A DNA stretch of 40,621 nucleotides from a virus, in the IMG/VR virus record IMGVR_UViG_3300027980_000057, positions 1 through 40,621 of that record. The stretch is one strand, 5' to 3'. The translations under genes and the position numbers were made by a program. This document shows positions 280 through 29,389 of this stretch, piece after piece. Every line of letters begins with the position of its first letter. Position 1 is the stretch's first letter. A model generated the notes under the pieces. The model worked only from the letters and a program-made list of their open reading frames with translations, was not told the origin of the DNA and did not search any database.

Positions 280-284
280 ATTTT
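280..284. repeat. Target-site duplication, left copy (ATTTT)
   Basis: Five bases ATTTT directly precede the phage tip TGTAG and recur directly after the other tip at 40252-40256. A 5-bp duplication is the known hallmark of Mu transposition. Confidence 0.9.
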
Positions 285-333
285 TGTAGCGCGCCGTTTG
301 ATTTGGGACAGTTTTTAATCTAATTTGGCACAG
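285..333 (-). promoter_or_regulatory. Right-end (attR) transposase sites R1 and R2
   Basis: R1 ends in TTTGATTTGGGACAG at 297-311. A second copy, CTAATTTGGCACAG, sits exactly 22 bp further in (320-333). Tight 22-bp spacing of R1 and R2 is what is known for the Mu right end. The opposite prophage end has matching sites in inverted orientation. MuA binding is inferred from position and similarity. Confidence 0.75.
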
Positions 334-378
334 GGTAGTTATAGTACATAATCACTTTTGGGTTTGATAACTGGTTAC

Positions 379-404
379 TGTAGCGCGGCGCTTGTTTTTG
401 CAGT
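379..404 (-). promoter_or_regulatory. Possible R3 site: partial copy of the phage tip
   Basis: TGTAGCGCGGCG at 379-390 repeats the terminal TGTAGCGCGCCG (285-296) with one mismatch, and the likeness continues through TTG, TTT and CAGT up to about 404, with a 2-base gap. It may be a third transposase site or a relic of a former end. Confidence 0.45.
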
Positions 405-446
405 ACGCGCCACATAAAATTGCAGCAGAAAAAATGAACTAAACCC

Positions 447-470
447 GGCTTTAAATCCTCTTTAAAGGCC
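447..470 (-). terminator. Hairpin after the last late gene, possible terminator
   Basis: GGCTTTAAA (447-455) and TTTAAAGGCC (461-470) pair with a 5-base loop and one bulged base. In the - strand transcript a run of six T follows about 12 bases later. It lies just past the stop of the last phage gene, so it may end the late transcript before the phage tip. The distance to the T run makes this weak. Confidence 0.4.
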
Positions 471-481
471 GTGAGCATTGT

Positions 482-661
482 TCAATCATTTAACGCCAGC
501 TCGGCTTCTTGTTGCTGCCTCAGTTCATGGCCCCGTTCATATCCTTTTAACCAGGCTATGGCTTGAGCGACAAAGCGCGCATCCGTAGTATATAAATACG
601 GATTATTTGACATATGGAGGCCGTTTAGGGCGGCTTGCATTCCTTCTTGGTAATAATTCAT
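482..661 (-). CDS. Small Rmf/CrpP-like protein (59 aa)
   Basis: The ATG overlaps the methylase stop (ATGA, 658-661), so the gene is translationally coupled and real despite its length. The protein begins MNYYQEGMQAALNGL and continues through NNPY (19-22) to AWLKGYERG (36-44). The pattern G-x-x-A-A-x-x-G, then NPY, then W-x-x-G-Y resembles the ribosome modulation factor / CrpP family, whose best-known member Rmf dimerises ribosomes into a hibernating 100S state. Whether this protein binds ribosomes is inference from the pattern alone; CrpP-like proteins have also been given other roles. It is the last gene of the phage, about 200 bp from the transposable end, where Mu-type phages carry dispensable cargo. 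Confidence 0.7.
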   Translation of the reverse strand: MNYYQEGMQAALNGLHMSNNPYLYTTDARFVAQAIAWLKGYERGHELRQQQEAELALND

Positions 662-1488
662 AATTCGTCCTTTTGGTTAGTGATGATAAGTTCCTGGGCG
701 CGGGCGCCGGTGGAGTGTTTGCCCGCGATGCTGTAATGGAGATCGGCCTCGCGCAGCTCAAAACCCGCGAACAGCTGTCTGATTTCCGGCACATCATTGA
801 TGGACAGGATGAACTTGCCCTTGATGCCCTTCAGGGTCCTGGCCATAAGCGTGAATTGATCCTGGCTGAACATGCCCTCGCCATAGTCATCTTCACAGTT
901 GAAATAAGGCGGGTCGAGATAGAACAGCGTGCCGGGACGGTCATATTTATTGATAAAGTCCTTCCAGTCGAGGCATTCGATAACGACACCCGTCAGGCGC
1001 TCGTGAACGTCCTGCAGCATCGGTTCGAGCTTTGATATATTGAACCGCGCCGGGCGGTCCACAGAGGCCCCGTATGTCCGCCCGGAGACCTTGCCGCCGA
1101 AGTTAGTGCGCTGGAGATAGAGAAAGCGGGCCGCCCGCTGCAGGTCGGTCAGGCTGTCCGGATTTTGCGCCAGAAGACGGGCAAACTCATTGCGGCCTGT
1201 TACCTGGTAGCGGAACATATCAATAAAGGCGGCATAATGATTGTTCAGGATCCGGAAAAGGTTGGCCACATCATGCGCATAATCATTGATGATCTCGGCC
1301 TTGGGCGCCTTGTCCCGCCGGAAGAAGATGCCGCCCATGCCGACGAACACCTCGGCATAGGTCGCATGATCAATCTGATCAATCATATGAATGATCCGCT
1401 TCGCCAGCCGGATCTTGCCGCCTTGGTACGGCGCGACAGGCTTTACGGGGGTTACTTCTTTATATATAGACTCCATGTATAAACTCAT
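658..1488 (-). CDS. D12-class DNA N6-adenine methyltransferase (Dam-like)
   Basis: 276 aa, full length for the Dam/DpnM family. Motifs in order are PYQGGK (20-25, SAM-binding motif), VFVGMGG (47-53), NDYAHDVANLF (68-78), RTNFGGK (127-133) and the catalytic DPPY (192-195). The enzyme should transfer a methyl group from S-adenosylmethionine to adenine N6 in DNA; the recognition site (often GATC in this family) cannot be read from sequence. It occupies the same terminal position as Mu mom, whose product modifies phage DNA against restriction, so an anti-restriction role is likely. A multi-hairpin element sits 42 bp upstream (1530-1622). The ribosome binding site is poor; an alternative ATG lies four codons in. 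It overlaps the next gene by 4 bp. Confidence 0.92.
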   Translation of the reverse strand: MSLYMESIYKEVTPVKPVAPYQGGKIRLAKRIIHMIDQIDHATYAEVFVGMGGIFFRRDKAPKAEIINDYAHDVANLFRILNNHYAAFIDMFRYQVTGRNEFARLLAQNPDSLTDLQRAARFLYLQRTNFGGKVSGRTYGASVDRPARFNISKLEPMLQDVHERLTGVVIECLDWKDFINKYDRPGTLFYLDPPYFNCEDDYGEGMFSQDQFTLMARTLKGIKGKFILSINDVPEIRQLFAGFELREADLHYSIAGKHSTGARAQELIITNQKDEL

Positions 1489-1529
1489 ATATTGATAGCC
1501 CCATCGCGCCGTCTTTAAAGGGTGGCCGA

Positions 1530-1622
1530 TAAGTAGGGGGCCAGTTATCTGGTGTGGCCTCCCCCGGCCACGGTTTAGGTTGCTGGAACAACCTAACCCC
1601 CTGCCTACTTAAAGGCAGGGGG
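1530..1622 (-). other. Multi-hairpin (cloverleaf-like) element upstream of the methylase
   Basis: The 116-bp gap and the 3' end of the acyl-synthase gene hold nested inverted repeats. An outer arm TAAGTAGGGGG (1530-1540) faces CCCCC (1597-1601) plus CTACTTA (1605-1611). Inside are CCAG/CTGG (1541-1552), GTGGCC/GGCCAC (1554-1571) and TTAGGTTG/CAACCTAA (1575-1596). A competing 9-bp hairpin CCCCCTGCC/GGCAGGGGG (1597-1622) uses one side of the outer stem, so two folds exclude each other. It lacks tRNA hallmarks such as a GTTCGA loop. An RNA switch or attenuator controlling the methylase is inference. Confidence 0.55.
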
Positions 1623-2138
1623 AAGATCCGGATCATCATATTTCATCAGCCAGCGGATCCCGTCGCAATCAACGGCGGGTCCGACCTTGCCATAGCCATA
1701 GCCGGCGCGCGCCAGCACCCGCTGCACTGCGGGCCGCATCAACGCATAGACCGGCCGCCGGGCATAATATTGCCGCAAGGCGTCGAAGCCTTCAGAGAGG
1801 CATTTCATCACCTCTACCCGCCTGAAGACCTGTTCTGTCTTCGGCGCGGGGATGCAAAGCCGGCCGATTTCCATCGCGTTTTCCGGGCATTTATAATCGG
1901 GCAGATATTTTTGTAGCGGCAGATGCGGCCCCGGGCAGAGCCGGGCGGTGGCGATCGGATGATCGTGCCACAGGACAAGGACGTGGGCCGCCTTTCGGTC
2001 ATAGGCGTCTTTTTCGAGCTCCGCCATATCCATCGGCTCCCACGGCCGCTCCTCGGCGTAAACCCGGTGGCGCAAGTGATAACAGGCGTCAATCATTTCG
2101 GGCGTCAGCGCCAGTCTATATTGCAGAGCCGCGGCCAT
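1605..2138 (-). CDS. LuxI/FeeM-like N-acyl synthase (GNAT fold)
   Basis: 177 aa. The conserved set of autoinducer synthases is visible at almost the same numbers as in LuxI/EsaI: R23 and Y27 with W33 (R-x3-aromatic-x5-W), D44 and D47 (DAYD), R66 (ATARL), E90 and R93 (MEIGRLCI). Known relatives are acyl-homoserine lactone synthases, N-acyl amino acid synthases (FeeM) and the PEP-CTERM/exosortase-associated acyltransferases; all use acyl carriers to acylate a small amine. Which product is made here cannot be told. The ATG overlaps the tail-gene stop by one base (TGATG); a GTG one codon earlier is possible. Its stop lies inside a strong hairpin. No LuxR-like receptor gene is present in the phage. 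It is unusual cargo among late genes. Confidence 0.72.
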   Translation of the reverse strand: MAAALQYRLALTPEMIDACYHLRHRVYAEERPWEPMDMAELEKDAYDRKAAHVLVLWHDHPIATARLCPGPHLPLQKYLPDYKCPENAMEIGRLCIPAPKTEQVFRRVEVMKCLSEGFDALRQYYARRPVYALMRPAVQRVLARAGYGYGKVGPAVDCDGIRWLMKYDDPDLPPAFK

Positions 2139-2920
2139 CACGCCAGCCCCCTGATTTTAACCAGGGTTGAAAATTCACCCAGCCGCGTATTATAGACCGG
2201 CGCGCCGATCTCAAAAAAGCCGTAGGCCAGCTCCCGCTGGGCATAGGCGCTGTCCAGGTCCGGGATGACAAGCGCCGCCTGATTGCCACTGAGCGCATAT
2301 TTCAGGTCATAAAAGCCTTGCCAGGCTTCGGCGGGGGTTAGATAAAGAAGTTTGGCGGAATAGTCGGTGGTGTCAGGGCCGACATTGGCGTAAACGGCGC
2401 CGGACCTTGCCCGGTCGTATGTGGTGCCGGTGACGATCTGATACCCGCTGCCCCACGAATGACCATCCGCCGGCTCAAAGGTCGATCCAATGAACAGCCG
2501 TCCGATCCGGAGCTTGCCGCCGGCCACCGCGCCGCCGGTGATGGCGATCCGCCACCATCTGAATGTCTGGGCCGCCGCACTATGCCACAGCCCATGGCTG
2601 CGGCCGTCATGGCGCGGATAGCCATCCATTCGCACTTCGCCCACGGCCTTAATGACAGTACCTGTGGCGAGGCCGCCCTGGGTCGCCGCCGCCCGGATTT
2701 CCCATGTCGCCCCGACCGGCAGGTTGGTAAAAAGCAGTCCGATCAGGTTGATGGGCGTCGCAATCCCCAGATCAATTTCAAGGGTCGCATCGGCGGTCGG
2801 CGACTGAAAAATATCGCCGGGCTGGATCACATTCAAATGGCTTGCCGGCATATCCGCCGTTTCGCCGCCGGTCGCGGTGACGGTATAATCAAAGGCGCGG
2901 GCGATGATGAATTTAGCCAT
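2138..2920 (-). CDS. Tail-tip protein with discoidin-like N-terminus
   Basis: 260 aa. Residues ~40-140 look like a beta-sandwich (the stretch ATLEIDLGIATPINLIGL resembles the start of F5/8-type, discoidin-like carbohydrate-binding domains); the C-terminal half, with AWQGFYDLKYALSGNQAALV and FGSTFEP-type blocks, is rich in aromatic residues and resembles small siphovirus tail-tip proteins. It lies four bases downstream of the 117-aa tail gene and overlaps the acyl-synthase start, so it belongs to the late tail operon. A role at the tail tip or in adsorption is inferred from position and fold appearance; no catalytic motif is seen. Confidence 0.6.
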   Translation of the reverse strand: MAKFIIARAFDYTVTATGGETADMPASHLNVIQPGDIFQSPTADATLEIDLGIATPINLIGLLFTNLPVGATWEIRAAATQGGLATGTVIKAVGEVRMDGYPRHDGRSHGLWHSAAAQTFRWWRIAITGGAVAGGKLRIGRLFIGSTFEPADGHSWGSGYQIVTGTTYDRARSGAVYANVGPDTTDYSAKLLYLTPAEAWQGFYDLKYALSGNQAALVIPDLDSAYAQRELAYGFFEIGAPVYNTRLGEFSTLVKIRGLA

Positions 2921-2923
2921 GAT

Positions 2924-3277
2924 CTATCCCCATAATTTCAAGATGGTCTGATTGGTCCCGAATTGTTCGGAGACGCCGCTGATGATAAAGTCTTTGCCGC
3001 CCGACAGATTATAGCGGTCGTATTTAAGGATGATGGTCTGGCCCGGCTGATATGCGCCAGGCTGGCCGAGCACCGTCGCCTGATAGACATTGCGGGCGAC
3101 TTTCAGCAGATCGAACTGCCGCAGGTTTTCCGCATCCGCCGCGGCTTCCAGGTCAAGACCGGTCGCGGCCTCCAGCTCCCGCGCCCCGGCGGACAGGGTT
3201 TTGACGCCACCGTCCGAACGGGTGACGGTGCGCACGGCCTGAGTGATTTCGGCAATTCTTGCGGGCGTGGCTGACAT
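2924..3277 (-). CDS. Small tail-region protein (117 aa), function unknown
   Basis: The first 60 residues are helical and acidic (ITQAVRTVTRSDGG, LEAATGLDLEAAADAENLRQ); the rest looks like beta-strands (YQPGQTIILKYDRYNLSGGKDFIISG) ending in LKLWG. The C-terminal strand pattern is like that of small hub or baseplate-like virion proteins, but I do not recognise the family. The gene abuts the membrane-protein gene upstream (stop and start adjacent) and lies four bases before the discoidin-like tail gene, so it is part of the late operon. A virion role is inferred only from context. Confidence 0.55.
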   Translation of the reverse strand: MSATPARIAEITQAVRTVTRSDGGVKTLSAGARELEAATGLDLEAAADAENLRQFDLLKVARNVYQATVLGQPGAYQPGQTIILKYDRYNLSGGKDFIISGVSEQFGTNQTILKLWG

Positions 3278-3664
3278 TTAACGGCTCCTTAAAAGCTGGT
3301 CATCGCCTTCATCGGCCTCGACGGCTTTGGCGGCATGGTCATCTTCAAACAGGTTCAGAAACCAATTGAAGCCCCGCCAGTAAAGCGCGGGCGCGTCCGC
3401 CGTCATGGCCTTGCCGACCCGCGATGAGAATGTCTCATCCGGATCACCCAGATGCCAGATATTGAATTTCTGCGACCAGGACAGAAGGTGGTTCCAGCTC
3501 CAATCCCGAAACAGCGGGAAAGGCGAAAGCCAGCGCGCCAGAAAATGCGCCGGCACATCGATCAAGGCGATCACCATATGGATCAAAATCATCACCATGA
3601 TGACCATTGAAACGGCAACCCAGGCAAAAAATTTAAGGACAGATAAAAACGATTTTAAAACCAT
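3278..3664 (-). CDS. Membrane protein, prophage family of unknown function (128 aa)
   Basis: An N-terminal hydrophobic stretch (residues ~5-37, WVAVSMVIMVMILIHMVIALI) forms one or two membrane segments. The soluble part has LGDPDETFSSRVGKA (72-86), a motif that, from memory, recurs in small prophage membrane proteins of unknown role, followed by aromatic and acidic residues. No enzymatic motif is seen. The gene sits between a lipoprotein gene and tail genes in the late operon. Roles in lysis or in altering the envelope after infection are possible, but the sequence does not decide. Confidence 0.6.
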   Translation of the reverse strand: MVLKSFLSVLKFFAWVAVSMVIMVMILIHMVIALIDVPAHFLARWLSPFPLFRDWSWNHLLSWSQKFNIWHLGDPDETFSSRVGKAMTADAPALYWRGFNWFLNLFEDDHAAKAVEADEGDDQLLRSR

Positions 3665-3676
3665 ATTTAATCCTTT

Positions 3677-4006
3677 TTAAGGGTGGAAATTGCCATGAAC
3701 GCAATGGGCCAGCTCATGGCCCCATGTCGCCATTTGTTTGTTGTCATTTTCGGAATTAAGCCGCACCACATGAATATCGCACACACCTTCACCAGCCGCC
3801 GTCCAGGTCGCCCACCCCATTAAGGCCGGATCATTCATGCCGTCATGATCCTGACGCGCTCTACGCATGGATTTATAATCGGGATAGGTATGAACAGTAA
3901 CCGTCATTTGTTCACCAGATCGGTCAAAGTCCTGCGGCAAAGGTTTCTTTTCTTCCCCGCAGGCTGTTAATAAATGAGCTATAAATATGATGATGAAATA
4001 TCTCAT
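3677..4006 (-). CDS. Small lipoprotein with C-terminal HExxH motif
   Basis: 109 aa from the ATG that follows a good GGGAG ribosome site. Residues 1-15 are a lipoprotein signal with lipobox LTAC (Cys16), so the mature protein should be anchored in the envelope. The C-terminus reads HELAHCVHGNFHP: H97, E98 and H101 make a zincin HExxH, with H104 and H108 as extra candidate zinc ligands. C102 and C76 could pair. Small phage and plasmid lipoproteins ending in HExxHC...H are known to me as a recurring type without an established function. Metallopeptidase activity is inference; the protein is short for an enzyme. Envelope modification or superinfection exclusion are possible roles. Confidence 0.7.
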   Translation of the reverse strand: MRYFIIIFIAHLLTACGEEKKPLPQDFDRSGEQMTVTVHTYPDYKSMRRARQDHDGMNDPALMGWATWTAAGEGVCDIHVVRLNSENDNKQMATWGHELAHCVHGNFHP

Positions 4007-4019
4007 TTTCCCATCTCCC

Positions 4020-4343
4020 TTAAAAATTGGCATAAGGTGCAAGCCATATGGTGCCTTTTTTAATGACGCCCGTGGCTGTGGGATTAAAAGGGTCGGTCGT
4101 GGGGTCAAGGGCCTCAATATCGCTTTCCAGCAGAACGCGCACCGACCGCAGGACGGTGTACAGGCCGAGCAATTCGGCTTTTTCTTCGTCCGGAAGATTG
4201 ACAACCTCAGATGACGTTAAGAAGCCTTGGGCGTCGAACATGCGGTCGATTTTAACGATATCACTATAAATATCCTCAATCCCCGCCGCCATCGCCCGGC
4301 CCTTCTGGATCACCCGCTGCACATCACTGTTGGTTACTGCCAT
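4020..4343 (-). CDS. Late-operon protein, 107 aa, unknown
   Basis: A mainly helical, acidic protein (VIQKGRAMAAGIEDIYSDIVKIDRMF, then DEEKAELLGLYTVLRSVRVLLESDIEAL) with a short C-terminal tail GTIWLAPYANF. I do not recognise a family. It starts 2 bp after the end of the large tail-tip/adhesin gene and is followed by the lipoprotein gene 13 bp downstream. A small fibre-associated or chaperone-like role would fit a gene directly after an adhesin, but this is context only. Confidence 0.6.
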   Translation of the reverse strand: MAVTNSDVQRVIQKGRAMAAGIEDIYSDIVKIDRMFDAQGFLTSSEVVNLPDEEKAELLGLYTVLRSVRVLLESDIEALDPTTDPFNPTATGVIKKGTIWLAPYANF

Positions 4344-4345
4344 TT

Positions 4346-7300
4346 TTATGCTCCTATGCCTGAATTTGATCCTGAGCCTGACAAGCTCAGGGTATGACCA
4401 TTTTTCTTGATGCCGGCGCCCTTGCCGCCGCCAGTGCCACCGGCAAAAGTCGCGCCCTGACCCGCCGTACCCGCTTGCGGCGTGATGCCGGTCACCCCGC
4501 CGCCATCACGGCCTGCGCCGCCGCCCGCCGCGCCTGCGCCGCCCGCACCGCCGCCGGATATAGTGCCAGGACTGCCCGCCGAGCCGTCGTACGCATCGGG
4601 GACAGTGCCGCCGGACCCGCCCGCGCCATTGGGCCAGCCGCCGCCACCGCCGCCGCCGCCGCGATAAAAATATTCGCCGCTGGAAAAAAACCGGTATCCG
4701 CCGCCGCCGCCGCCGCCACCGGATCCGCCGGAAATCGTCCCGTTATTGACCAGGGTCAGGTCCTCATTGAGCGTCACGCCATGGCCCCCATTGCCGCCAT
4801 TGCCGCCGGCGCCCAGGCCGCCGCCGCCGCCGCCCGCGCCGCCAGCGCCACGGATTATGACGCCGCTATTGATATTGAGCGTAAGATTTATTGTCTGCGC
4901 CGCCGGCCATGATCCGGTGTCAATTGCACCGCCACTCGTTGCGGTGATGGACGAGGACACCGTAACCGTGAAATTGGCGTCCGATTGCCCGTCATATCCC
5001 ATGGAGTCCGCCAAATTGCGCATATTCACCGCCGAGCCCGACGAATGGGTCGCGGATGAGGTAAAGGCCGTCGGCGGATCGCCGCTGTCGCCCTTGCCGC
5101 TGATCAGGTCCCACACACTGTTTGAGGCGTTCGTGGCCGGCGGCGCGACGCCGCTGATGCCGGCCGAATTGGTGCTGGTGCAGATAAAAAAGCGATCCTG
5201 ATAGCTGACCGTCTGGCCCAGATAATAGGTCGCGACCGCCGAATAAACGCCGCGATAATCGGCTTTATACAGCTCCGGATCAGTCCAGGGCGTCTGGATC
5301 GTGCCGTCGCCGTTTTTAATCGCCCGGCTGACCCATGTGGTGCCGGCCCCCGGCACGTCCTGCCAGCCAACCGGCTGTTCGCCCGTCGGCGTCCCGGGCT
5401 TGGTTGCGGCGAGGTAAAATTTAAAATCGGTGTAGCGGCCGGGCCGGCCGGCGATAAAAAGAGACTGCAGGCTCGGTTCATTGCCGTTGAGTTCGTCAAA
5501 GCGGGGCCGGGAGAAATAGGCCGTGACGCCCGCCACCGTGGCGTAATACTGATAGGCCCTGTGGACCTGTGCCGTCGCCCCCACTGCATTTTTATATTCA
5601 GTCCCGGTGATCACTTTTTCGGCCGTTTCCGGGTCATAAACCCCGGCGTGGCCAGTATCGGCGCCGGTATAATCCGACCCGTGTATCACCCCGACAATCA
5701 GATACCATTTATTCAGCGTCGGCAGGTCGCCATTCCAAAAATAAGGATTGCCATTTACCGTACCCGATAAATTAAGCGTGCTGCCGCCGGCGGCGGAGCA
5801 TCCGAGGTATATCGTGCCGTTCGTACTTGTCTGCATCGCCCAGACTGTCAGGCGATATGACTTTTTATTATCTATCGGAATATTATTATGGTTCCAGCCG
5901 CCGTCGCCGTCATTCAGGCCATCGGATGACATCTTCCACAGCGGCTCGGTCGCGCCGTAAGGGCCGGCGCCAAGGACGATTTCATTTTCAGCATCAAGCC
6001 CATTCCGAAGGAAATCGCCCTGTGACCCCGTTGTGCCGACGGTCCACTGGGTCACATCAATCAGGTTCCCCTCGCCGCCGATGCGGCTCCAGTCATAATC
6101 CGCCGGATTGCTGCTTTCGGTCGATACGGTCTTGTTATAGGCGAGCCCGATATAGGTCCGGCCGCCCGGCGCGCCGTTGGTGAAATTGATGGTTCCGTCG
6201 GCGCTGTCGGCATAGGCGATCCAGGTGTAAAGCGATTGACCGTCCGATCCCGCCGGCCCTTGGATCCCCTGCGGGCCTTGCGCGCCGTCTGTCCCGTCCG
6301 CCCCTTTGACCAGCGACCAGGCATAATCCGCCGCATCCGCGCTCTCGGTCGATACGGTCTTGTTATAGGCCACGCCGATATAGGTCCGGCCGCCCGGCGC
6401 CCCGTTGGTGAAATTCGTCACCCCGTCGGCGCTGTCGGCATAGGCGATCCAGACATAGGTTGCCTGTCCTTGCGGCCCCGTCGGGCCCTGAATGCCTTGC
6501 GGACCTTGCGCGCCGTCCGCCCCTTGCGGGCCTTGTGGACCTTGTGCGCCGTCGAGCCCGGCGGCGCCGGAAACAAATGGTGTGATCGCGGTAAGGCCGC
6601 TGCTGACGCTTTCGGCCTCGACGACCGCGAGAATGCAATCCGTCGCGACAATGGCAAGAGCATAATCTGTGTCGTCATTGTCAAAGGCTTTCCAGACGCC
6701 GCCCACGACCCGAATGGGGACGATATTGGCCGCTCCACCCCAACTACCCGTTGGAAATCGGGTTGCGCGAACGGTATCTGTCCACATCAGATAAAACCGT
6801 CCGGCCGATAAGCCGTCACCATATGGGGTCCAAATACCGGAAGTAGCCTGGACTGAACGCTCAACTCCGTCGGGATGAATAAAGCGGCTGCCCTGAATGC
6901 GGATTTCTCCCGGATTTATAGTACCGTCAGCATTCATATCCAGTGTGATTATCATATCCGCCGCGCCGCCGACCACGCCCGGCGCGAAAGGGATCGGCAG
7001 ACTGGCGAGAGCATCCTTGCCATCAACGCCGTCCACGCCATCGGCGCCACTCGCCCCCGGCGCGCCGTCCTGCCCGGCATCGCCCTTTATATAACCCCGT
7101 GATGTCCAGGTCGTGAGAGCCGTTTTTTCAAAATATTCCTGGGAAGTAAGATCAATATAAAAATCGCCGAATTCACCCAGCGCGCCCAAAGGAGCGCCGG
7201 CGCCAGTGAGCCACTTAACGCCCGCCGGTCCTTGCGCGATTTCGCCGGAATTCTGAACCCGCCAGTTGGGATGATAGGTCGTTTTCAGCCGCCAGACCGG

Positions 7301-8362
7301 CGGCGGGGTTTCGAGGCGGACCAGGCTTTTGATATTGCGGGCGCTGATCTCCGCCTGTGGGGCCGTGAAATCGATGATGCCGACGGTGAGGCTGCCCAGC
7401 CAGTTAACCATCCAGTAGCCGCCTACCCCCCGCATCAGGGCGCTGAACAGGGTGCTGGCGTTTTCCGCTGATCTGGCATGCAGAGAACAGGCGGCGGAAT
7501 TTACGCCGTTTAATGCGGTAAAGGCCGCGGCGTCCACCGTAACCTGACTGCTGTCCGGAATAAAATCCAGCAGTCGTTTTATAATGTCGCCGGCGGTGGC
7601 GACATATCCGCCGGCGGCGTCGCCCTTAAGGTCCACGGTGACCAGCCCGGCGGGCTTGGCGCCAAGCCGGAACAGACCGCGGCTCAGGTCAGTTTTATAC
7701 CTCCCGGGGAGCGGCGACCAGGCAGCCAGGTCCGTCGTATCTCCGTCGGCCGTCAAGGCGACGCCCTGGTCAAAGACGCCGTCGATCGATTGCACCGCGC
7801 GGCAATGCGCCTGATAGACCAGATCGACGCTATCCACCAGCACCGGCTCCATATTGAAAATCGGCCCGAATGCCCAGGGTTTGACCGTGTCCTTCAGCTC
7901 CGCCGGCCCTTCATAGTCCCCCGCCGCATATCCGGCGCCCGTGTATGTGGGAAAATCAACCGGCTGGTCAAAGATATTGCTTTTATCGCCAAGCGCGAGC
8001 GTCAGGGTCGCTTCATCAAAACTCATATCCCTGACAAAGCCCTGGAACCGCAAGGTGAAGTCGGCGAAATTATCGCCCTCTCCGGTCCAGATTTTTATCC
8101 CGCGCTGGTCCCAGTGAAAGGCGGTGAGCTGATCCAGTTCGCCGTCGCCGATCGCCAGCTGCAGCGTCCCGGCCGTCCGCTGGGCCGAGGCCGAGATAAA
8201 TTCATTTTCAAAGATGCTGAGGCCGAGGGACAGGTTTGATTTAATCCGCGACCGCCAAAGCTTGCCATCAAACACCGGAACCGGACCCGCCGAGCTGAAG
8301 CGGAGCGTGATTTCCGCTGCGCCCACCGGATCATATGGCGTGATTTCGGCGAGGATGATCAT
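4346..8362 (-). CDS. Giant tail-tip protein with collagen-like and polyglycine adhesin segments
   Basis: 1338 aa; the ATG overlaps the tape-measure stop (ATGA) and has an AGGTG site. Residues 1-~420 are a globular hub-like domain with a YDP motif near the start. Three collagen-like Gly-X-Y stretches follow at ~426-451, ~601-632 and ~688-708; the last two flank a ~77-residue module that is duplicated (IAYADSADG...FTNGAPGG), visible also in the DNA at a 231-bp offset. Residues ~750-960 resemble a carbohydrate-binding jelly roll. The C-terminus (~1168-1322) is very glycine-rich with runs of up to eight or nine Gly, like the polyglycine lattice of some phage adhesins. It thus seems to join hub, shaft and receptor-binding tip in one chain. 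Host recognition is the inferred role. Confidence 0.8.
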   Translation of the reverse strand: MIILAEITPYDPVGAAEITLRFSSAGPVPVFDGKLWRSRIKSNLSLGLSIFENEFISASAQRTAGTLQLAIGDGELDQLTAFHWDQRGIKIWTGEGDNFADFTLRFQGFVRDMSFDEATLTLALGDKSNIFDQPVDFPTYTGAGYAAGDYEGPAELKDTVKPWAFGPIFNMEPVLVDSVDLVYQAHCRAVQSIDGVFDQGVALTADGDTTDLAAWSPLPGRYKTDLSRGLFRLGAKPAGLVTVDLKGDAAGGYVATAGDIIKRLLDFIPDSSQVTVDAAAFTALNGVNSAACSLHARSAENASTLFSALMRGVGGYWMVNWLGSLTVGIIDFTAPQAEISARNIKSLVRLETPPPVWRLKTTYHPNWRVQNSGEIAQGPAGVKWLTGAGAPLGALGEFGDFYIDLTSQEYFEKTALTTWTSRGYIKGDAGQDGAPGASGADGVDGVDGKDALASLPIPFAPGVVGGAADMIITLDMNADGTINPGEIRIQGSRFIHPDGVERSVQATSGIWTPYGDGLSAGRFYLMWTDTVRATRFPTGSWGGAANIVPIRVVGGVWKAFDNDDTDYALAIVATDCILAVVEAESVSSGLTAITPFVSGAAGLDGAQGPQGPQGADGAQGPQGIQGPTGPQGQATYVWIAYADSADGVTNFTNGAPGGRTYIGVAYNKTVSTESADAADYAWSLVKGADGTDGAQGPQGIQGPAGSDGQSLYTWIAYADSADGTINFTNGAPGGRTYIGLAYNKTVSTESSNPADYDWSRIGGEGNLIDVTQWTVGTTGSQGDFLRNGLDAENEIVLGAGPYGATEPLWKMSSDGLNDGDGGWNHNNIPIDNKKSYRLTVWAMQTSTNGTIYLGCSAAGGSTLNLSGTVNGNPYFWNGDLPTLNKWYLIVGVIHGSDYTGADTGHAGVYDPETAEKVITGTEYKNAVGATAQVHRAYQYYATVAGVTAYFSRPRFDELNGNEPSLQSLFIAGRPGRYTDFKFYLAATKPGTPTGEQPVGWQDVPGAGTTWVSRAIKNGDGTIQTPWTDPELYKADYRGVYSAVATYYLGQTVSYQDRFFICTSTNSAGISGVAPPATNASNSVWDLISGKGDSGDPPTAFTSSATHSSGSAVNMRNLADSMGYDGQSDANFTVTVSSSITATSGGAIDTGSWPAAQTINLTLNINSGVIIRGAGGAGGGGGGLGAGGNGGNGGHGVTLNEDLTLVNNGTISGGSGGGGGGGGYRFFSSGEYFYRGGGGGGGGWPNGAGGSGGTVPDAYDGSAGSPGTISGGGAGGAGAAGGGAGRDGGGVTGITPQAGTAGQGATFAGGTGGGKGAGIKKNGHTLSLSGSGSNSGIGA

Positions 8363-11300
8363 TCTGACACCTGCCGCAGATAAATTCTTCCACCTGACCC
8401 GCCACCGCCGCTGTAACCGCCGCCGAAGCCACCGCCGCTGTAACCACCGCCGAAACCACCGCCACCCCAACCGCCAAAGCCGCCGCCAAAGCCGGGGAAA
8501 CGACCTTCGCCCCATGTCGGCGCCGCCGGCCCGATCAGGTCGCGGATTTCGGTCAGCAGTTCGGCCGCGACGCTGTTGCCGGCGGCAATGGTGTCATTGA
8601 CCTGGTCAAGGCCCTGGGCGAGGTCCGGGAAGACATTTTCGATGGTCGCCGTCGGCACATTGGTCACGGGCGTTGTCGTTGATCCGGACAGCTGATTTTC
8701 CAGGTTGCGCAGGCTGTCGACGATAAAGGCTTCCCGGGTAAAAAACTGCTCTGAGCTGGCGAAGGCTGCAAGACTTAAATTGCGCAGGTCATCCGCCGCG
8801 CTGACAACCTCATTGATGGCCTCTTCATCGCCGCCTTGGGCGCGGGCATACAGATCGTTAAAGCGCGCCTCGGCGGCCTTTAACTGTTCGCCGGGGCTTA
8901 GCTGTGATGATCCACCGATGGTGATGTCATTGACAAAATTATTGATGTCATCATTCAGACCGAGCAGCACCCGTCCGGCGGTCTTGCCGAAATCCTCAAT
9001 CAGCTTCTGGCGCTCCAGCAGGTTCAGTTTTTCGACCGCCACCAGATCCGCGCCGAGGGCCTGGGCTTCCCTCAGCCGTTCGACCTGGGTGTCATATTGC
9101 CGCTGCAGCTGCGCCTCGAGCGGATTTTCAAAATCCATAATGCCGAGAGCGATCGTCTTGTCGAATTCATCCCTGAGCCGGTTCAGTTCCCGTTCGAACG
9201 CATCCCCCACCTTGCTCGCGTCAAGGCCCAGTTGTTTCGCCTTCTTCGCCACATCCTTGAAGCCCTTCGCCAGATCGCGGAGCTTCTTCTCGGCTTCGTC
9301 CATCCGGGGCGCGGTGACTTCGTCATAGACCTTGCCGAACTCGAGATTGGCGAGCACCACATTGGACGGCTTGTCGAGGCTGTTTTTTAAAATGGTTTTA
9401 AAGGTGTCTGAAACGTCAATTTTACCGCTATTCACCGCGTAGGCCAGCTGGGCGGCGATCGCGTCTTCGGCGGTTTTGAATTCCCTTCGTTTTCGGCCGG
9501 GGGCTTCAAAAATAAAGTCCTCTTTACGGATGCCGATATTGCCGATATTGCCTTTTAAGGATCCGCCCGCAATATCAAGAATGCTTTGAAAATACTGCAC
9601 CGTGGCGTTGGCGAGCTTGCCGGCCGCCGCCACATCGCCGGATCCGCGTTTCCGCACAGGGCCGGCCGAAACCCCGCCGTAGGCGTCGCCTGAGATCGCC
9701 GCCTTGGCTTCCGGCGTTTTTTTAAACAGGCCTACGACGGCGCCAATGATACCGCCAATAATGCCGCCGGTCGGGCCGGCGAGTTTCAGGCCGATACCGG
9801 CCCCGGTCAGCGCGCCCTTGCCCACTTTGCCGAGCCCCAGCATATCGGCGAGGATTGATCCCTGCGCCCCGCCGTCAAGCGCCTTGCCAAAGACCGTCGA
9901 CAGCTTGCCGATGCCTTTTTCCGTGAAGCCCAGCGCCTTGCCAACCTTATCCAGGGATTTGACCAACAGTCCCTGTTGCTGTACTTCGGGGGATGACTTG
10001 CCGTTATCATTGGCGGCTTTGTTGGTGCCGAACAGCACCCCGAAAAGATCAGTGCCGCCGGTCGTGCCCAGCCCTTTCAAGGCATATTGCGCCGCCCATG
10101 TTTCAGCCAGCGCCCGGCGCCCGATGGATTTATAGGCGTCCCAGAAGCCTTTGATCCCGTCCATATTGCCCTGGAGCAATTCATCAAAGGTGTCGGCCAG
10201 GGAGCGCTGGACATTTTCGCGCTGGTTATCCCAGACTTTTTTCCGGGCCTCTGCCGCGTCTTCTTCCGCAGCCACGCGTTTTTCGATTTCAGCCTTGGCT
10301 TTAACATGGGCGCGGGCTTCCTCGCCCAGCTGCTTTATTTCTTCTGCGGTCAGCTCAATGCCACGCCGTTTCGCCTCATTCAGTTTTTCGCGAACATAAA
10401 GCTCACCCTCGCGGGCCTCATCCGACAGGCCAAGCAGGCGGATTTCATCCGCCATTTGTTTATTGATTTCGGCGAGAAAATCCTTCGACTTAGGATAATA
10501 TTTATCCTGGGCCAAACCCAACAGCCGCTCATACTCAGTTAAACTTGGGATCAGCTTTTTTGAATATATTGCCGCAAGATCCTCTTTTATCTTGGCGTAT
10601 TCCCGTGATTTTGCCAGGGCAGGATCAAGTGCATTGGAAATGTCGAGATAGGATTTTTTAAGCTTTTCCATCTCTTCCGCCGCCAAGACGGCGGCTTTGA
10701 TCGTTTTTTCCCCGATATTTTCTTCTACCGCCTCGGCGACTTTTCCGGATTTTTCTTCTAAATCTGCCAATTCTTTATTAAGGGCAGCAATCTCAGCCTT
10801 TGTTTTTCGAATTGCGGACGTATTCTGATCCGCATGAAAACGCACTGTGCCCGTCTTTGAAAATACCGGACGGAAATCCTGTTGCTGCTCAGCGAGCAGC
10901 GCTTGCTTTGTTTTAAGCTCTTGTCGAATGCTGGCCTGGTTTCGTTTATTTTCTACCTGATACAGGCGTTCCACTTCTTTTGCCTGGTCGGCGGTCGCGG
11001 TCGCAATATCGGACAGAACTTTAAGATAGGCATCTGACCGGGCAATTTTTCTTTTTTCAAAGTCTTCCTGATCAGCGGTTTTTTTATTCAGCAAGGTCAA
11101 AGCCCCGACTAATGTCCCGATGGCTATGGCTGCAAGACCAAAGGCATTGGCGGAAAGTGCAGCTGTCAGGCCCTTCACCCCTGCGGTTACCGCGCCAATG
11201 ACGGGCGGTAGGAGGGCGGCGGCCACGCGATAGGTTCCATAACCTATAACCAGGGATTTAATCATGGCGATATTTTCACCCATAAAGCGGACCACATCGC

Positions 11301-12261
11301 CGAGGTCCCGGCCCAGCTCCTTTAATGTGCCGTCGTCGACCAGTCCCTGGATCACCGATCTGAATTCGCCGGCGCTCGTCGTCACCGGCTCTAAAAACCC
11401 GGACCCGAAGGCGATCTTCGCATCCATAAAGGCATTTTGAAGACGGTTCAATTCGGCCTGCGGGCTTTTCATGGCGGCGGGCAGGTCGGCGCCAAATTCT
11501 TTCCTGAGTTGGGCGGCAAAACGCGGGATAAATTCATCGGACAATAGCTCACCATTATCCAGCATTTTATTCAATTGCTGCGTTGTAACCCCCATGGCGC
11601 GCGCCGCAATTTGAAAAGCTCCCGGCAGCCGTTCCCCGAGCTGGCCGCGCAATTCTTCGGCTTGGACCTTGCCTTTTGACATGATCTGTTCAAGGGCGCG
11701 CGCCGCCCCTGACATCTGATCCTGATTAAAACCTAAAACGGTTGCGGCCTCGGCCAGACCGAGCCAAACCTCCCTGACTTGCTTGCCCTGAAGGCCGGTA
11801 CCCCGGGCCGCCGCCGTAAGTTTGGAATAAAGCCCGATCTGATCCAGAAAGACAAGGCCCAGTTCTTCGGATTTTGCCCGTAGGAAATCTTGCTCAAATG
11901 CCGCTTGACGAGTATCACCGGCGCCAAACTTCAAGGCGCGGTTAAACCGGTCCTGGGCCAGAGCGGCGCCGCCGGTTTGCTGGATCAGGTATTTAAGGGA
12001 AAATCCCGCGATCAAGGCCCGCATATCTGAAAAGCTATTATTCAGGCTTTTTGTGCTTCGGCGTAAATTTTTTGTGGACCTTGTCGCCTGGTCGCTTTCC
12101 CGGCCGAATTTATCGACGCCATGGGCGGATTTAAGCGCGGCGGAGGAAGCTTTATCAAGGCCTTTTGTGAGCTTATTCAACTCCGCCCTGGTGAGCTTAA
12201 CCTCACCCACCAGGCCCGAACCGTCCGCCTTGAATGTGATGCCTACGACTATATTGCTCAT
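8359..12261 (-). CDS. Tail tape measure protein
   Basis: 1300 aa. The N-terminal ~270 residues match the tape-measure domain style (RALIAGFSLKYL, then AEELRGQLGERLPGAF). Hydrophobic segments lie at ~370-395 (AFGLAAIAIGTLVGALTLL) and near 820-840 (GGIIGGIIGAVVGLF), between long coiled-coil stretches (~420-520, ~540-650 and ~1010-1110). The protein fills the tail tube, sets tail length and helps DNA cross the membrane. The last ~40 residues are an unusual Gly/Phe/Tyr run (FGGGFGGWGGGGFGGGYSGG). It follows the chaperone genes, as in most siphoviruses. I see no lysozyme-like motif in it. Confidence 0.92.
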   Translation of the reverse strand: MSNIVVGITFKADGSGLVGEVKLTRAELNKLTKGLDKASSAALKSAHGVDKFGRESDQATRSTKNLRRSTKSLNNSFSDMRALIAGFSLKYLIQQTGGAALAQDRFNRALKFGAGDTRQAAFEQDFLRAKSEELGLVFLDQIGLYSKLTAAARGTGLQGKQVREVWLGLAEAATVLGFNQDQMSGAARALEQIMSKGKVQAEELRGQLGERLPGAFQIAARAMGVTTQQLNKMLDNGELLSDEFIPRFAAQLRKEFGADLPAAMKSPQAELNRLQNAFMDAKIAFGSGFLEPVTTSAGEFRSVIQGLVDDGTLKELGRDLGDVVRFMGENIAMIKSLVIGYGTYRVAAALLPPVIGAVTAGVKGLTAALSANAFGLAAIAIGTLVGALTLLNKKTADQEDFEKRKIARSDAYLKVLSDIATATADQAKEVERLYQVENKRNQASIRQELKTKQALLAEQQQDFRPVFSKTGTVRFHADQNTSAIRKTKAEIAALNKELADLEEKSGKVAEAVEENIGEKTIKAAVLAAEEMEKLKKSYLDISNALDPALAKSREYAKIKEDLAAIYSKKLIPSLTEYERLLGLAQDKYYPKSKDFLAEINKQMADEIRLLGLSDEAREGELYVREKLNEAKRRGIELTAEEIKQLGEEARAHVKAKAEIEKRVAAEEDAAEARKKVWDNQRENVQRSLADTFDELLQGNMDGIKGFWDAYKSIGRRALAETWAAQYALKGLGTTGGTDLFGVLFGTNKAANDNGKSSPEVQQQGLLVKSLDKVGKALGFTEKGIGKLSTVFGKALDGGAQGSILADMLGLGKVGKGALTGAGIGLKLAGPTGGIIGGIIGAVVGLFKKTPEAKAAISGDAYGGVSAGPVRKRGSGDVAAAGKLANATVQYFQSILDIAGGSLKGNIGNIGIRKEDFIFEAPGRKRREFKTAEDAIAAQLAYAVNSGKIDVSDTFKTILKNSLDKPSNVVLANLEFGKVYDEVTAPRMDEAEKKLRDLAKGFKDVAKKAKQLGLDASKVGDAFERELNRLRDEFDKTIALGIMDFENPLEAQLQRQYDTQVERLREAQALGADLVAVEKLNLLERQKLIEDFGKTAGRVLLGLNDDINNFVNDITIGGSSQLSPGEQLKAAEARFNDLYARAQGGDEEAINEVVSAADDLRNLSLAAFASSEQFFTREAFIVDSLRNLENQLSGSTTTPVTNVPTATIENVFPDLAQGLDQVNDTIAAGNSVAAELLTEIRDLIGPAAPTWGEGRFPGFGGGFGGWGGGGFGGGYSGGGFGGGYSGGGGSGGRIYLRQVSE

Positions 12262-12265
12262 TGCT

Positions 12266-12604
12266 TTATTTCTCAGCCATTAAACTTAAAACCGCCTGTT
12301 CGCATATCCGCAACCTGTCAAACATGTCTTCGTCGATCTCAATCTTCGCCCATCGCGCCGCCGTCTCAACGCCTGAATAATCAAGCCCCATGCGCCGGCC
12401 ATCCATGCCGGCATGTCGCCATTGCGTCAGGCTTTTTAAAAACAGGGTAAACGCGGGCCAGTTGGCTTTCACCACGGCAAAGGGTTTATCCTGTTCCCTT
12501 TTTTCCAGGGACTGGATGAATTTCTCATCCAGCCCGCGTCGTTTGAATTCTGCGATCTTTTTTTGATCGACCCTGGATTTCGCGCCGGAAAACAAATGTT
12601 TCAC
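12266..12604 (-). CDS. Tail assembly chaperone, frameshifted 'T' part (DUF1799-like)
   Basis: 112 aa as an independent frame; the motif WPAFTLFLKSLTQW...GRRMGLDYSGV is typical of DUF1799 (PF08809). The only start is a GTG without a good ribosome site. The frame is open back through LDDA to a -1 slippery heptamer at the end of the preceding gene, so it is probably made chiefly as the C-terminal half of a 239-residue fusion. In lambda the matching pair is G and GT: the fusion bridges tape measure and tube subunits during tail assembly and is absent from the mature virion. Its place directly before the tape measure gene fits. Confidence 0.85.
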   Translation of the reverse strand: MKHLFSGAKSRVDQKKIAEFKRRGLDEKFIQSLEKREQDKPFAVVKANWPAFTLFLKSLTQWRHAGMDGRRMGLDYSGVETAARWAKIEIDEDMFDRLRICEQAVLSLMAEK

Positions 12605-12612
12605 GGCGTCGT

Positions 12613-12984
12613 CTAGTTTTTTGCCTCAATCCCCTGGCAGCACTCGGTATATGCCGGAAAGATCGCGGCAATGACAAAAGGCAGCTTCAACAGGTTTTCC
12701 AGGTTCGAGCTGTTGAACGGCAGGGCGGTTTTTTTCGCCCCCATCACATGTTTCCAGCCGGTGATCTTATCGGCCCACAGGGCCCGCACCTTGGCCGCGG
12801 CGGCCGCCTCGTCAATATCGCGGGCGATGCCCTGCAGCCTGTTTAAAAAATCCTCCGTCTCATCGGTCGAACCGACGATAAAGCGCAGCTCGATTTTATG
12901 CTGTTTTACCTTGCCGCCGTCGGCCGGCGTATTGATGATCACCGGCCAGTAGACCTGCAGGTTTTCTGTTAGAATGAATGACAT
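12613..12984 (-). CDS. Tail assembly chaperone, 'G' part
   Basis: 123 aa. Beta-rich N-terminus (LTENLQVYWPVIIN...HKIELRFIV) followed by helices (FLNRLQGIARDIDEAAAAAKVRALWADKITGW). It resembles lambda gpG-type chaperones in size, position and order: after the tube gene and before the tape measure. The last codons are GCA AAA AAC TAG, which places a canonical slippery heptamer in register directly before the stop. A four-copy repeat array lies just upstream of its start (13000-13152). Standard termination gives this short product; a fraction of ribosomes should shift into the DUF1799 frame. Confidence 0.85.
   Translation of the reverse strand: MSFILTENLQVYWPVIINTPADGGKVKQHKIELRFIVGSTDETEDFLNRLQGIARDIDEAAAAAKVRALWADKITGWKHVMGAKKTALPFNSSNLENLLKLPFVIAAIFPAYTECCQGIEAKN
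12616..12622 (-). other. Programmed -1 ribosomal frameshift site (A AAA AAC)
   Basis: In the 0 frame the codons are GCA AAA AAC TAG. A -1 slip on A_AAA_AAC gives CTA GAC GAC GCC GTG AAA, exactly the frame of the DUF1799-like gene. A CGCCG/CGGCG pair a few bases downstream could form a stimulatory stem. The heptamer, frame and genomic place match the G/GT mechanism known in siphoviruses. Confidence 0.85.
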
Positions 12985-12999
12985 TGGGTTTCCTTTTTT

Positions 13000-13152
13000 A
13001 TGCGCTATCGCCTATCGGCTACCTGAGCGCGGGTTTTTATGCGCTATCGCCTGTCGGCTACCTGAGCGCGGTTTTTATGCGCTATCGCCTATCGGCTACC
13101 TGAGCGCGGTTTTTATGCGCTATCGCCTGTCGGCTACCTGAGCGCGGTTTTT
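13000..13152. repeat. Four-copy 38-39 bp tandem repeat array
   Basis: Copies start at 13000, 13039, 13077 and 13115. Each holds GCGCTATCGCC, then (A/G)TCGGCTACC and TGAGCGCGG, followed by T5-6. Copies 1 and 3 have A and copies 2 and 4 have G at the variable site, which suggests doubling of a two-unit block. GCGCT and AGCGC can pair within a unit or across a junction. There are no unique spacers, so it is not CRISPR. It lies between the tail-tube and chaperone genes. Confidence 0.9.
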
Positions 13153-13154
13153 TA

Positions 13155-13227
13155 TTTTTTTAAGTGATGGGGGAACTACCGCTCCTCACGTCACTACTTG
13201 AGTTCCCCCGTTCGCGGGGGCGCGAGC
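13155..13227 (-). repeat. Dispersed palindromic element, copy A
   Basis: GGGGGAACT (13169-13177) pairs with AGTTCCCCC (13201-13209); a second hairpin CCCCCG/CGGGGG with a TTCG loop overlaps it (13205-13220). Read on the - strand it ends AGTTCCCCCATCACTTAAAAAA, as copy B does on the + strand at 29263-29367. A shorter third copy is at 38538-38575. A-runs, not T-runs, follow the hairpin, so it is not an ordinary terminator. Confidence 0.75.
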
Positions 13228-13229
13228 CC

Positions 13230-14159
13230 TTACTTCACGACCAGTTTGACATCGTCATCACCGGTATCTGGCAGGGGACGAACATTGCCCGAAATCATCA
13301 GGATGTTTTCGTCGTCCGCATAATCAGCGTCGCGGAATTCCGCTTTCGGGCAGCTGAGCTCGATGATATTGCCGGCGACAGCGCCGTGGGTCAGCAACAG
13401 GGCGCCGGTGAGGCTGCCTTTGTCGATGGCGAAGAAATCCTTGGTCGCCACATCCGGGGCCTCGAACTGGATGCTGCCGCCGGGCGTCCGTTCGGAAATG
13501 CGGATTTTCTTGGCGCCCGGCAGGTCCCGCAGTGTCGGGTTCCAGGACATGCCCATTTCAAGGGATTTCAGCACCGCTGAATAGCCGTGCAGGGTGAAGG
13601 CCGGCGTATTGTCGAAATTGACCTCGAGCGGCTCCTGATAGGCGCTGAAGTCAGGCGCCGCAATGGCCCCGCCCGCGACCGGCGACCAGAGCCCGGTGAA
13701 TTTGAACTTCATTTTCGGCAGATCATTGCCGGGAAAGTCAAAGGAAACATCGCCCCGGGCGCCGATAAATTTATGCAGGTCGCCGTCCTGCTCGGCATAA
13801 ATGGTGACACTCTCAAAATTGCCCGATACCGGCAGATAGGTGACGTCGGTCGCGACAACGATCGTCTCGGCAAACCCGCAGGCCCGCAGCAACGGGCCAT
13901 ACGCCGGCGCCGTGCCGGCCGCGCCGGATCCCGCCAGTTCGACCTCAAATTCGATGGTGTTATGCAGGCCGCTTTTAATCTGTGGCTTATTGCCGAGATA
14001 GGGTTGCGCGACATTGCGTTCTTTGTATTCACCCTGACCCTGGCCGATTTTGGCGTTCAGGGCGAAGATGGCGTCGGCGCCGGTCGGCGCGGCGTCCGTG
14101 CCATAGGCCGCTTCGATTTTTGCGGCGAGGATGATCTGGTCATATTGTCTTTCGGGCAT
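13230..14159 (-). CDS. Major tail tube protein (siphovirus type)
   Basis: 309 aa, similar to the Phage_tube_2 type (PF18906): an AAYGTDAAPTGADAI N-terminus, a middle beta-rich part (GLHNTIEFEVELAGSG, GDVSFDFPGNDLPKMKFKFTG) and a C-terminal set of strands. The protein polymerises into the hollow tail. No sheath gene accompanies it, which with the chaperone pair and tape measure argues for a long non-contractile tail, unlike Mu itself and like the B3/D3112 kind of transposable phage. A tandem repeat array and palindrome follow its stop, where a highly expressed mRNA 3' end would profit from protection; that is inference. Confidence 0.88.
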   Translation of the reverse strand: MPERQYDQIILAAKIEAAYGTDAAPTGADAIFALNAKIGQGQGEYKERNVAQPYLGNKPQIKSGLHNTIEFEVELAGSGAAGTAPAYGPLLRACGFAETIVVATDVTYLPVSGNFESVTIYAEQDGDLHKFIGARGDVSFDFPGNDLPKMKFKFTGLWSPVAGGAIAAPDFSAYQEPLEVNFDNTPAFTLHGYSAVLKSLEMGMSWNPTLRDLPGAKKIRISERTPGGSIQFEAPDVATKDFFAIDKGSLTGALLLTHGAVAGNIIELSCPKAEFRDADYADDENILMISGNVRPLPDTGDDDVKLVVK

Positions 14160-14161
14160 GA

Positions 14162-14353
14162 TTATTTCTCCTTGGTGTTCGCGCCAGATTTCTGATCAGA
14201 TTTCTGTGCTGTTTTTTCAACGGTTTCGGTCGGCGCAGCTTCCGCCACGTCTGGACGCGGCGCATTGCCGTCTTTCGTGCGGCTGAGCAGCTTTTCCTTG
14301 CCGCCGCGTTTCTCATAACTGCCGCCGGCGCGGCGTTTCATGGAACCTGTCAT
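14162..14353 (-). CDS. Small basic protein before the tube gene (63 aa)
   Basis: A short Lys/Arg-rich protein (MKRRAGGSYEKRGGKEKLLSRTKDG) with a disordered Ala/Glu/Lys tail. It overlaps the tail terminator gene by 4 bp (ATGA) and ends 2 bp before the tube start, so it belongs in the tail operon. Mu carries a similarly placed small gene (gp38-like), but I see no firm similarity. Function unknown. Confidence 0.6.
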   Translation of the reverse strand: MTGSMKRRAGGSYEKRGGKEKLLSRTKDGNAPRPDVAEAAPTETVEKTAQKSDQKSGANTKEK

Positions 14354-14757
14354 GATGTTTTCCTTAAGTTGTCAGTGGTTGAAAATTGGATTTCATAGAT
14401 CAGCTTGCCGGGATAGGGCACCAGCCGCCAGCCGATATAATCGCAGAGCGCGCCGGTGCTGCTGTCCGGATGTTTAAAACCCGCCAGGGCGGATTTTACC
14501 CCTTCGCGGTAAGCCTCACTTTCGTCATCCTTGCGGGCGTCGAGGACAATGACGACGGAAAAGCTGATCGTGAGTTTCTGGCGATAGCCGCCGGCGGCGC
14601 GGGCCGGCGCCGACGCCTTCTCCCCGGTCATCACGACAAAGCAAGCCGGTGACACCTTGAAGTCTTGCGATACCTGGGCCAGGGCTTCCGCCGCGCCCTT
14701 TTCCCGGAAATGCAGGCCGGATGTTTCAATCTGCGTTAAGATCGGTTCAGTTCGCAT
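14350..14757 (-). CDS. Tail terminator-like protein (Mu gp37 type)
   Basis: 135 aa from the ATG after a GGAGGC site, a start that overlaps the gpG-like gene by 11 bp. An N-terminal helix (ILTQIETSGLHFREKGAAEALAQV) precedes a beta-rich core (ACFVVMTGEKA, KLTISFSVVIVLDARKDDESE) and a final strand YPGKLIYEIQFST. Fold order, size and place between the virion morphogenesis gene and the tube gene match gp37/tail terminator proteins, which cap the tail and join it to the head. The family assignment is from context and pattern, not from a search. Confidence 0.72.
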   Translation of the reverse strand: MRTEPILTQIETSGLHFREKGAAEALAQVSQDFKVSPACFVVMTGEKASAPARAAGGYRQKLTISFSVVIVLDARKDDESEAYREGVKSALAGFKHPDSSTGALCDYIGWRLVPYPGKLIYEIQFSTTDNLRKTS

Positions 14758-19069: not shown

Positions 19070-19079
19070 GTTCCTGGTT

Positions 19080-19121
19080 AAAAAAGCCCCGGCCCCCTGA
19101 ACCCAATCAGGCGCCCGGGGC
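19080..19121 (-). terminator. Intrinsic terminator after the FluMu_N-like gene
   Basis: On the - strand GCCCCGG (19121-19115) pairs with CCGGGGC (19092-19086), with an inner CCTG/CAGG pair, and six T follow at 19085-19080. It would trim transcription after the capsid genes. The T-run abuts the ribosome site of the next gene. Confidence 0.8.
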
Positions 19122-19142
19122 AGTCCTCATCGGCGAGAATTT

Positions 19143-19373: not shown

Positions 19374-19388
19374 TGGTCATCCCTCCTG

Positions 19389-20282: not shown

Positions 20283-20294
20283 GATATTTATCCT

Positions 20295-21766: not shown

Positions 21767-21823
21767 GATGGTCCCGAGTAAATAATCACTGTTTGATCCG
21801 GAGATTAGGGGACGCGGGACAAC

Positions 21824-22084: not shown

Positions 22085-22090
22085 ATGACT

Positions 22091-27177: not shown

Positions 27178-27180
27178 GGA

Positions 27181-27480: not shown

Positions 27481-27483
27481 TTC

Positions 27484-28010: not shown

Positions 28011-28012
28011 TT

Positions 28013-29367: not shown

Positions 29368-29389
29368 CATAATGGCACAGTAATTTTAA

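Follow-up and report, generated by a model that had tools for sequence, protein, structure and literature searches.

A Mu-type prophage integrated in an alphaproteobacterium carries, at the end of its tail operon, an intact gene whose product looks like a working N-acyltransferase of the autoinducer-synthase superfamily, apparently on a branch of its own. The window analyzed here is an entire viral contig of 40,621 nucleotides (IMG/VR record IMGVR_UViG_3300027980_000057), and the features discussed are collected in Table 1. Enzymes of this superfamily, which includes LuxI and FeeM, acylate an amine with a fatty-acyl group taken from acyl-ACP or acyl-CoA. We favor, with a probability of roughly 0.6, a reading in which the protein (hereafter, the synthase) would be an acyl-ACP- or acyl-CoA-dependent N-acyltransferase of a phage-borne branch, carried as tail-operon cargo, made late in infection and yielding an N-acyl amino acid or an N-acyl homoserine lactone (AHL). 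The intact gene is kept at the same site of the tail operon in a second virus species, so it is likely that the virus produces its own fatty-acyl compound in the late stage of infection.

Table 1. Coordinates of the features discussed, in positions of the window
Feature	Position	Strand	Basis
Target-site duplication ATTTT (5 bp), left copy	280..284	.	
Complete Mu-type prophage, TG...CA ends	285..40251	.	shared terminal motif GTTTGATTTGGGACAG / GTTTGGTATGGGACAG
D12 class N6-adenine DNA methylase, next downstream of the synthase gene	658..1488	-	PF02086 E 6e-26, PHROG 56 E 2e-84
Tandem pair of RNA hairpins at the 3' end of the synthase gene	1575..1622	-	z -4.9 (window), -2.0 (related virus L091)
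N-acyltransferase, autoinducer-synthase superfamily (putative)	1605..2138	-	177 aa; profiles and fold match
Tail-region gene (260 aa), directly upstream of the synthase gene	2138..2920	-	PHROG 8610
Mor/C-type late transcription activator	29390..29785	-	PHROG 836 (late transcriptional activator), E 2e-24
MuB-like AAA ATPase	34895..35887	-	PF13401, PF05621
MuA-type transposase	35649..37790	-	PF09299, PF02316, PF00665
CI-like repressor with S24 peptidase domain	39243..40004	+	PF00717, PF01381
Target-site duplication ATTTT (5 bp), right copy	40252..40256	.	

The element is a Mu-type temperate phage, as an earlier reading made from the sequence only had proposed, because it encodes a MuA-type transposase, a MuB-like ATPase, a DUF3164 protein, a Mor/C-type activator, a GH108 endolysin, a Mu gp29-type portal and an S24/CI repressor. 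Its ends (TGTAGCG... at 285 and ...CTTACA at 40251) are exact, being bounded by the 5-bp duplication and sharing an inverted terminal motif that is identical at 14 of 16 positions (0 of 500 shuffles). Outside these ends lie a tRNA-Arg gene and a fragment of an acetyl-CoA C-acyltransferase gene whose product is closest to proteins of alphaproteobacteria. The synthase gene is located 1.3 kb inside one end, within the tail operon, and, since the exact ends and the duplication enclose it, it is phage cargo, as that reading had also held; a host gene at the contig edge is thereby ruled out. The S24/CI repressor is a conventional lysogeny switch, and the Mor/C-type activator presumably drives the late operons. 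A profile search with PF03472 matched nothing in the window or in the record of the related virus described below, and the only GerE-like match in the window is the Mor-type late activator. A LuxR within the window was accordingly rejected, and the claim that no cognate LuxR is encoded was confirmed.

The synthase ORF extends from an ATG at 2138 to a TAG at 1607-1605, with zero internal stops and an in-frame GTG one codon 5' of the ATG. In profile searches, the PF13444 model (Acetyltransf_5, N-acyl synthase domain) matched above its gathering score (31.3 bits, E 3.4e-7, against 22.4), and three further models matched below their cut-offs: the exosortase-associated TIGR03694, the best-scoring of all (63.4 bits, E 2.1e-17; cut-off 111.95), PF00765 (LuxI/Autoind_synth; 19.1 bits, E 0.001; cut-off 24) and FeeM (PF21926; 15.5 bits; gathering score 27). 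The PHROG search with the synthase produced no significant match. Going by these statistics, the family matches lie far beyond chance. By sequence, the first PDB match of the synthase was LasI, aligned over residues 14-156, with SACOL1063 as a further match over residues 13-70.

All eight landmark residues listed in the sequence-only reading (R23, Y27, W33, D44, D47, R66, E90 and R93) are present, along with E42, G146 and G160. The near-identical spacing also claimed there applies to part of the protein: the first five bear the same numbers (23/27/33/44/47) in what we take to be the LasI numbering, and R66, E90 and R93 presumably correspond to about 70, 101 and 104 of LasI, the middle being shorter. 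In an alignment of 11 sequences (5 LuxI proteins, 3 exosortase-type proteins, an Alteromonas N-acyltransferase, the synthase and its phage ortholog), six residues of active-site type (R23, E42, D47, R66, E90 and R93) are invariant. Position 33 is a tryptophan in both phage proteins and all five LuxI controls, but in only one of the four non-LuxI controls, the other three having phenylalanine. Given that the exosortase-associated acyltransferases possess the same landmarks (W33 apart), these residues are best taken as marks of the superfamily and would not, on their own, be diagnostic of an AHL synthase.

The profile scores separate the two phage proteins from the characterized families. With TIGR03694 the pair scored 56-63 bits, compared with about 15-16 for TraI-type models, and proteins above the TIGR03694 cut-off examined here scored 136-232. 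For the LuxI controls, the TraI models gave 24-94 bits and TIGR03694 gave 37 or less, and in four of the five the TraI models came out ahead. For the phage ortholog, every score was under cut-off (TIGR03694 55.7, PF00765 18.2, FeeM 18.0 and PF13444 18.1 bits). In a maximum-likelihood tree of the 11 sequences, the phage pair (support 100) grouped separately from two clades, one of exosortase-type proteins (90) and one of LuxI proteins (88), and the long branches make all three groups tentative. The phage proteins may, then, form a separate branch beside the LuxI and the exosortase-associated N-acyl synthases, and, on the scores under curated cut-offs and the tree placement, we would file the synthase under none of LuxI, FeeM and exosort_acyl. 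Superfamily membership with active-site residues, as initially suggested, is corroborated by the PF13444 match above cut-off, the TIGR03694 E-value of 2e-17 and the eight landmarks; the label LuxI- or FeeM-like in the narrow sense fails, the protein missing the PF00765, FeeM and TIGR03694 cut-offs and lying outside the LuxI and exosortase-type clades. When the LuxI, FeeM and exosortase-associated models are compared directly, as had been proposed, the last scores far better than the other two, and all three remain below cut-off.

Of known enzymes, the exosortase-associated N-acyltransferases (TIGR03694, Neisseria NmNAT) resemble the synthase in giving the best-scoring profile and in sharing the landmarks and a GP-x-VD-x-x-G-x-R-like C-terminal motif. 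They differ in length (about 240 aa, compared with 177), in the residue at position 33 (phenylalanine in most of them) and in setting (a cellular locus rather than a phage tail operon), and the synthase reaches 63 of the 112 bits required. An exosortase-type N-acyltransferase was also observed on plasmid pRlX5 of Rhizobium leguminosarum TP16 (1516-2223; TIGR03694 136 bits); it is directly followed by an apparent ThiF/E1-like protein (2250-3080), and an N-acyl pathway is possible there.

An AlphaFold2 model of the synthase, built on an alignment of two sequences, reached a pLDDT of 70 and a pTM of 0.67 and was weakest at residues 28-36 and in the C-terminal tail. Among the PDB matches listed, the best TM-scores belonged to AHL synthases (TofI 0.63, LasI 0.62, EsaI 0.61, MesI 0.61, BjaI/RpaI 0.59), compared with about 0.47-0.57 for other GNATs. 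The top Foldseek E-value went to a generic GNAT, 3efa (TM 0.51), which, together with the SACOL1063 match over residues 13-70, would fit a generic acetyltransferase, acting on small molecules or on proteins, that resembles N-acyl synthases only superficially. That explanation seems improbable in view of the best profile, which is an N-acyl synthase model and not a generic GNAT, the nearly full-length alignment to LasI and TofI, the presence of all landmarks, with D44, D47 and E90 fitting, and the TM-scores; we disfavor it.

The same comparisons bear on whether the synthase is a true AHL synthase, which would use S-adenosylmethionine and acyl-ACP to make a lactone acting on LuxR of the host or a neighbor, priming quorum sensing or the lysis/lysogeny decisions of other phages. 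W33 follows the LuxI pattern, a profile of the two phage proteins searched against the PDB finds LasI and TofI first and nearly full length, among viral proteins the closest fold match is the annotated AHL synthetase of Roseobacter phage RDJL Phi 2, and an active LuxI is known from a Mu-family prophage (PMC13345283). We nonetheless consider this rather unlikely: both orthologs stay under the PF00765 cut-off (19.1 and 18.2 against 24), the balance of TraI-type and TIGR03694 scores is opposite to that of four of the five LuxI controls, the phage pair is placed outside the LuxI clade (in a small tree), and the gene is accompanied by no LuxR and lies outside any regulatory module.

In the tail operon, the stop codon of the upstream tail-region gene shares one base with the start codon of the synthase gene (TGATG), and the D12 methylase gene comes next, so that the coupling to a tail gene and the methylase neighbor described earlier were both borne out. 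The stop codon of the synthase gene is inside the first of two tandem hairpins, which have no U-tract and are therefore no plain terminator; possibly they form a barrier to transcription or RNA decay. Tandem hairpins are found in the related virus as well (L091 10506-10552), the second with another stem sequence and a similar shape. No promoter-like sites above chance were detected in the synthase region. The end position in the tail operon, the upstream overlap, the Mor/C activator and this lack of promoter-like sites suggest, from gene order, late lytic expression of the synthase. Two other features of the tail region were observed: a small putative lipoprotein (3677-4204) with a GHELAHCVHG zinc-peptidase-like motif and no family match, and a large tail protein (4346-8515) with internal repeats of ~220 bases (80% alike, about 6089-6534) and collagen-like G-x-y stretches.

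This arrangement invites two further explanations. The synthase could acylate a phage structural protein (the product of the coupled gene or another tail protein), in the manner of acyl-ACP-dependent lysine acyltransferases, and the one-base overlap with the tail-region gene in both phages would, through co-expression, unite enzyme and substrate. We regard this as very improbable, considering that EBPR siphovirus 2 has a homolog of the upstream gene but no synthase, and that cargo of unrelated kinds would likewise be expected in the slot separating the tail genes from the right-end methylase. Alternatively, the synthase could modify DNA together with the neighboring methylase, protecting against host restriction, as does the GNAT-fold Mom. 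The com/mom genes lie at the right end of phage Mu; the synthase is likewise a GNAT-fold protein in the right-end late region of a Mu-type phage, beside a DNA methylase, and Mom is among its viral fold matches. The similarity is, however, limited to the general fold (TM 0.51, far lower than the RDJL Phi 2 match and no better than many other GNATs), the N-acyl synthase profiles are strong instead, and Pfam, PHROGs and NCBIfam gave no Mom-type family match for the synthase; Mom-type DNA modification was accordingly rejected as extremely improbable.

The second virus species (L091, IMGVR_UViG_3300020439_002420, 33.8 kb) is also a Mu-type phage and is colinear with the window from the methylase to MuB, with amino acid identities of 75% for the terminase, 67% for the portal, 70% for the capsid, 68% for the methylase and 47% for the upstream tail-region gene. 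Its synthase ortholog is 55% identical and occupies the same slot, between tail gene and D12 methylase, again with a one-base overlap (TAATG). Between the two viruses, pN/pS was 0.43 for the synthase, 0.27 for the methylase and 0.54-0.60 for the neighboring tail-region genes. The shared slot, the overlap and the pN/pS of 0.43 argue, at the level of sequence comparison, for a maintained gene under purifying selection; a decayed copy was rejected on the absence of internal stops and the same ratio.

A survey of related prophages, as suggested in the sequence-only reading, thus yielded one same-slot ortholog, in L091, and none elsewhere: PF13444 had no match in 80 terminase-related viral records or in EBPR siphovirus 2, with a viral contig identical in sequence to the window (L001) as the positive control. 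Many of those records are fragments, and the pattern pre-filter was lossy, missing L091 despite its 75% identical terminase. No match was produced by tblastn with the synthase across 50,697 phage records, or by searches of genome contigs with the synthase and with the two-protein alignment. A related methylase is also present at the right end of two annotated alphaproteobacterial phages, in which the synthase slot holds other genes or none. We disregarded a lasI recorded for "Acinetobacter phage MD-2021a", because fatty-acid metabolism genes surround it and the contig is probably bacterial. Given the fragmentary state of many records and the lossy scan, the rarity of the synthase is uncertain, and counts among viral records are a weak guide to it.

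Under the favored reading of phage-borne N-acyltransferase cargo, the synthase would be co-translated with the last gene of the tail region, at a late lytic stage, and would attach a fatty-acyl group of the host to either an amino acid or an acceptor derived from S-adenosylmethionine. The product, which would leave with lysis or stay in the membrane, would be an N-acyl homoserine lactone or, with somewhat greater likelihood, an N-acyl amino acid; we infer acyl donor, product class and release alike. As for the benefit to the phage, our guess is signaling to neighboring cells via host receptors or a surfactant aid to lysis. As no LuxR is encoded, any signaling would proceed via receptors of the host or of other cells, and it is just as conceivable that the product acts like a surfactant at lysis. 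The effect on lysis decisions that had been suggested found no support, the synthase lying in the tail operon of a phage with its own S24/CI repressor, an arrangement that argues against a lysogeny-control role of the prophage LuxI/LuxR kind.

Phages that use bacterial chemical language are known, either with LuxI/LuxR pairs in a lysogeny switch or with LuxR receptors alone. Parallels are provided by the xre-luxR-luxI modules of Roseobacter prophages, one of them Mu-family, which make AHLs and promote lysogeny (Bunsick et al. 2026 preprint, PMC13345283). In that study, luxI systems were found in 53 of 93 Roseobacter prophages, the prophage LuxI enzymes of Phaeobacter make AHLs, luxI is beside luxR in the regulatory region, and neither studied prophage has recognizable CI-type regulators (PMC13345283). 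Because these modules make AHLs (PMC13345283), a phage-made acyl signal is already known. The present phage resembles their carriers (PMC13345283) in being temperate, alphaproteobacterial and, as in one case there, Mu-type, with an enzyme of the same superfamily. What differs is the operon, the absence of a receptor, the branch and the repressor: the modules consist of a luxI, xre and luxR operon opposite an hth gene, whereas the synthase gene is in a structural operon, without LuxR, on another branch and in the presence of S24/CI. Superfamily genes are also carried by RDJL Phi 2 and by the isolated Rhodobacter capsulatus phage RcCWillis, whose gp81 is a LuxI by PF00765 (41 bits), unlike the synthase. 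This gp81 (OP009268.1, 2914-3423) is annotated as a hypothetical protein, with no LuxR among the neighboring annotations. Separately, the 41-kb Phaeobacter inhibens plasmid pP24_g (NZ_CP010703.1) is a phage-plasmid, combining repAB with portal, terminase and tail genes, and contains an HTH-LuxR-LuxI-HTH stretch (35658-37973) that resembles the prophage quorum-sensing modules (PMC13345283).

Small, intact and easy to assay, the synthase is a solid lead, the function, product and benefit of which we infer. A tentative but possible extension is that a phage-specific, receptor-less branch of N-acyl synthases makes a new signal or surfactant only while the cell is being killed, so that lysis itself would message the neighbors; such lysis-timed output would set it apart from the LuxI/LuxR switches of prophages, whose signaling takes place during lysogeny. 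Should the product prove to be an N-acyl amino acid and not a lactone, lipid-signal or surfactant chemistry would be added to phage cargo. A conserved synthase without a receptor at the end of a tail operon would turn these known arrangements around, giving an output that has no input and is timed to lysis.
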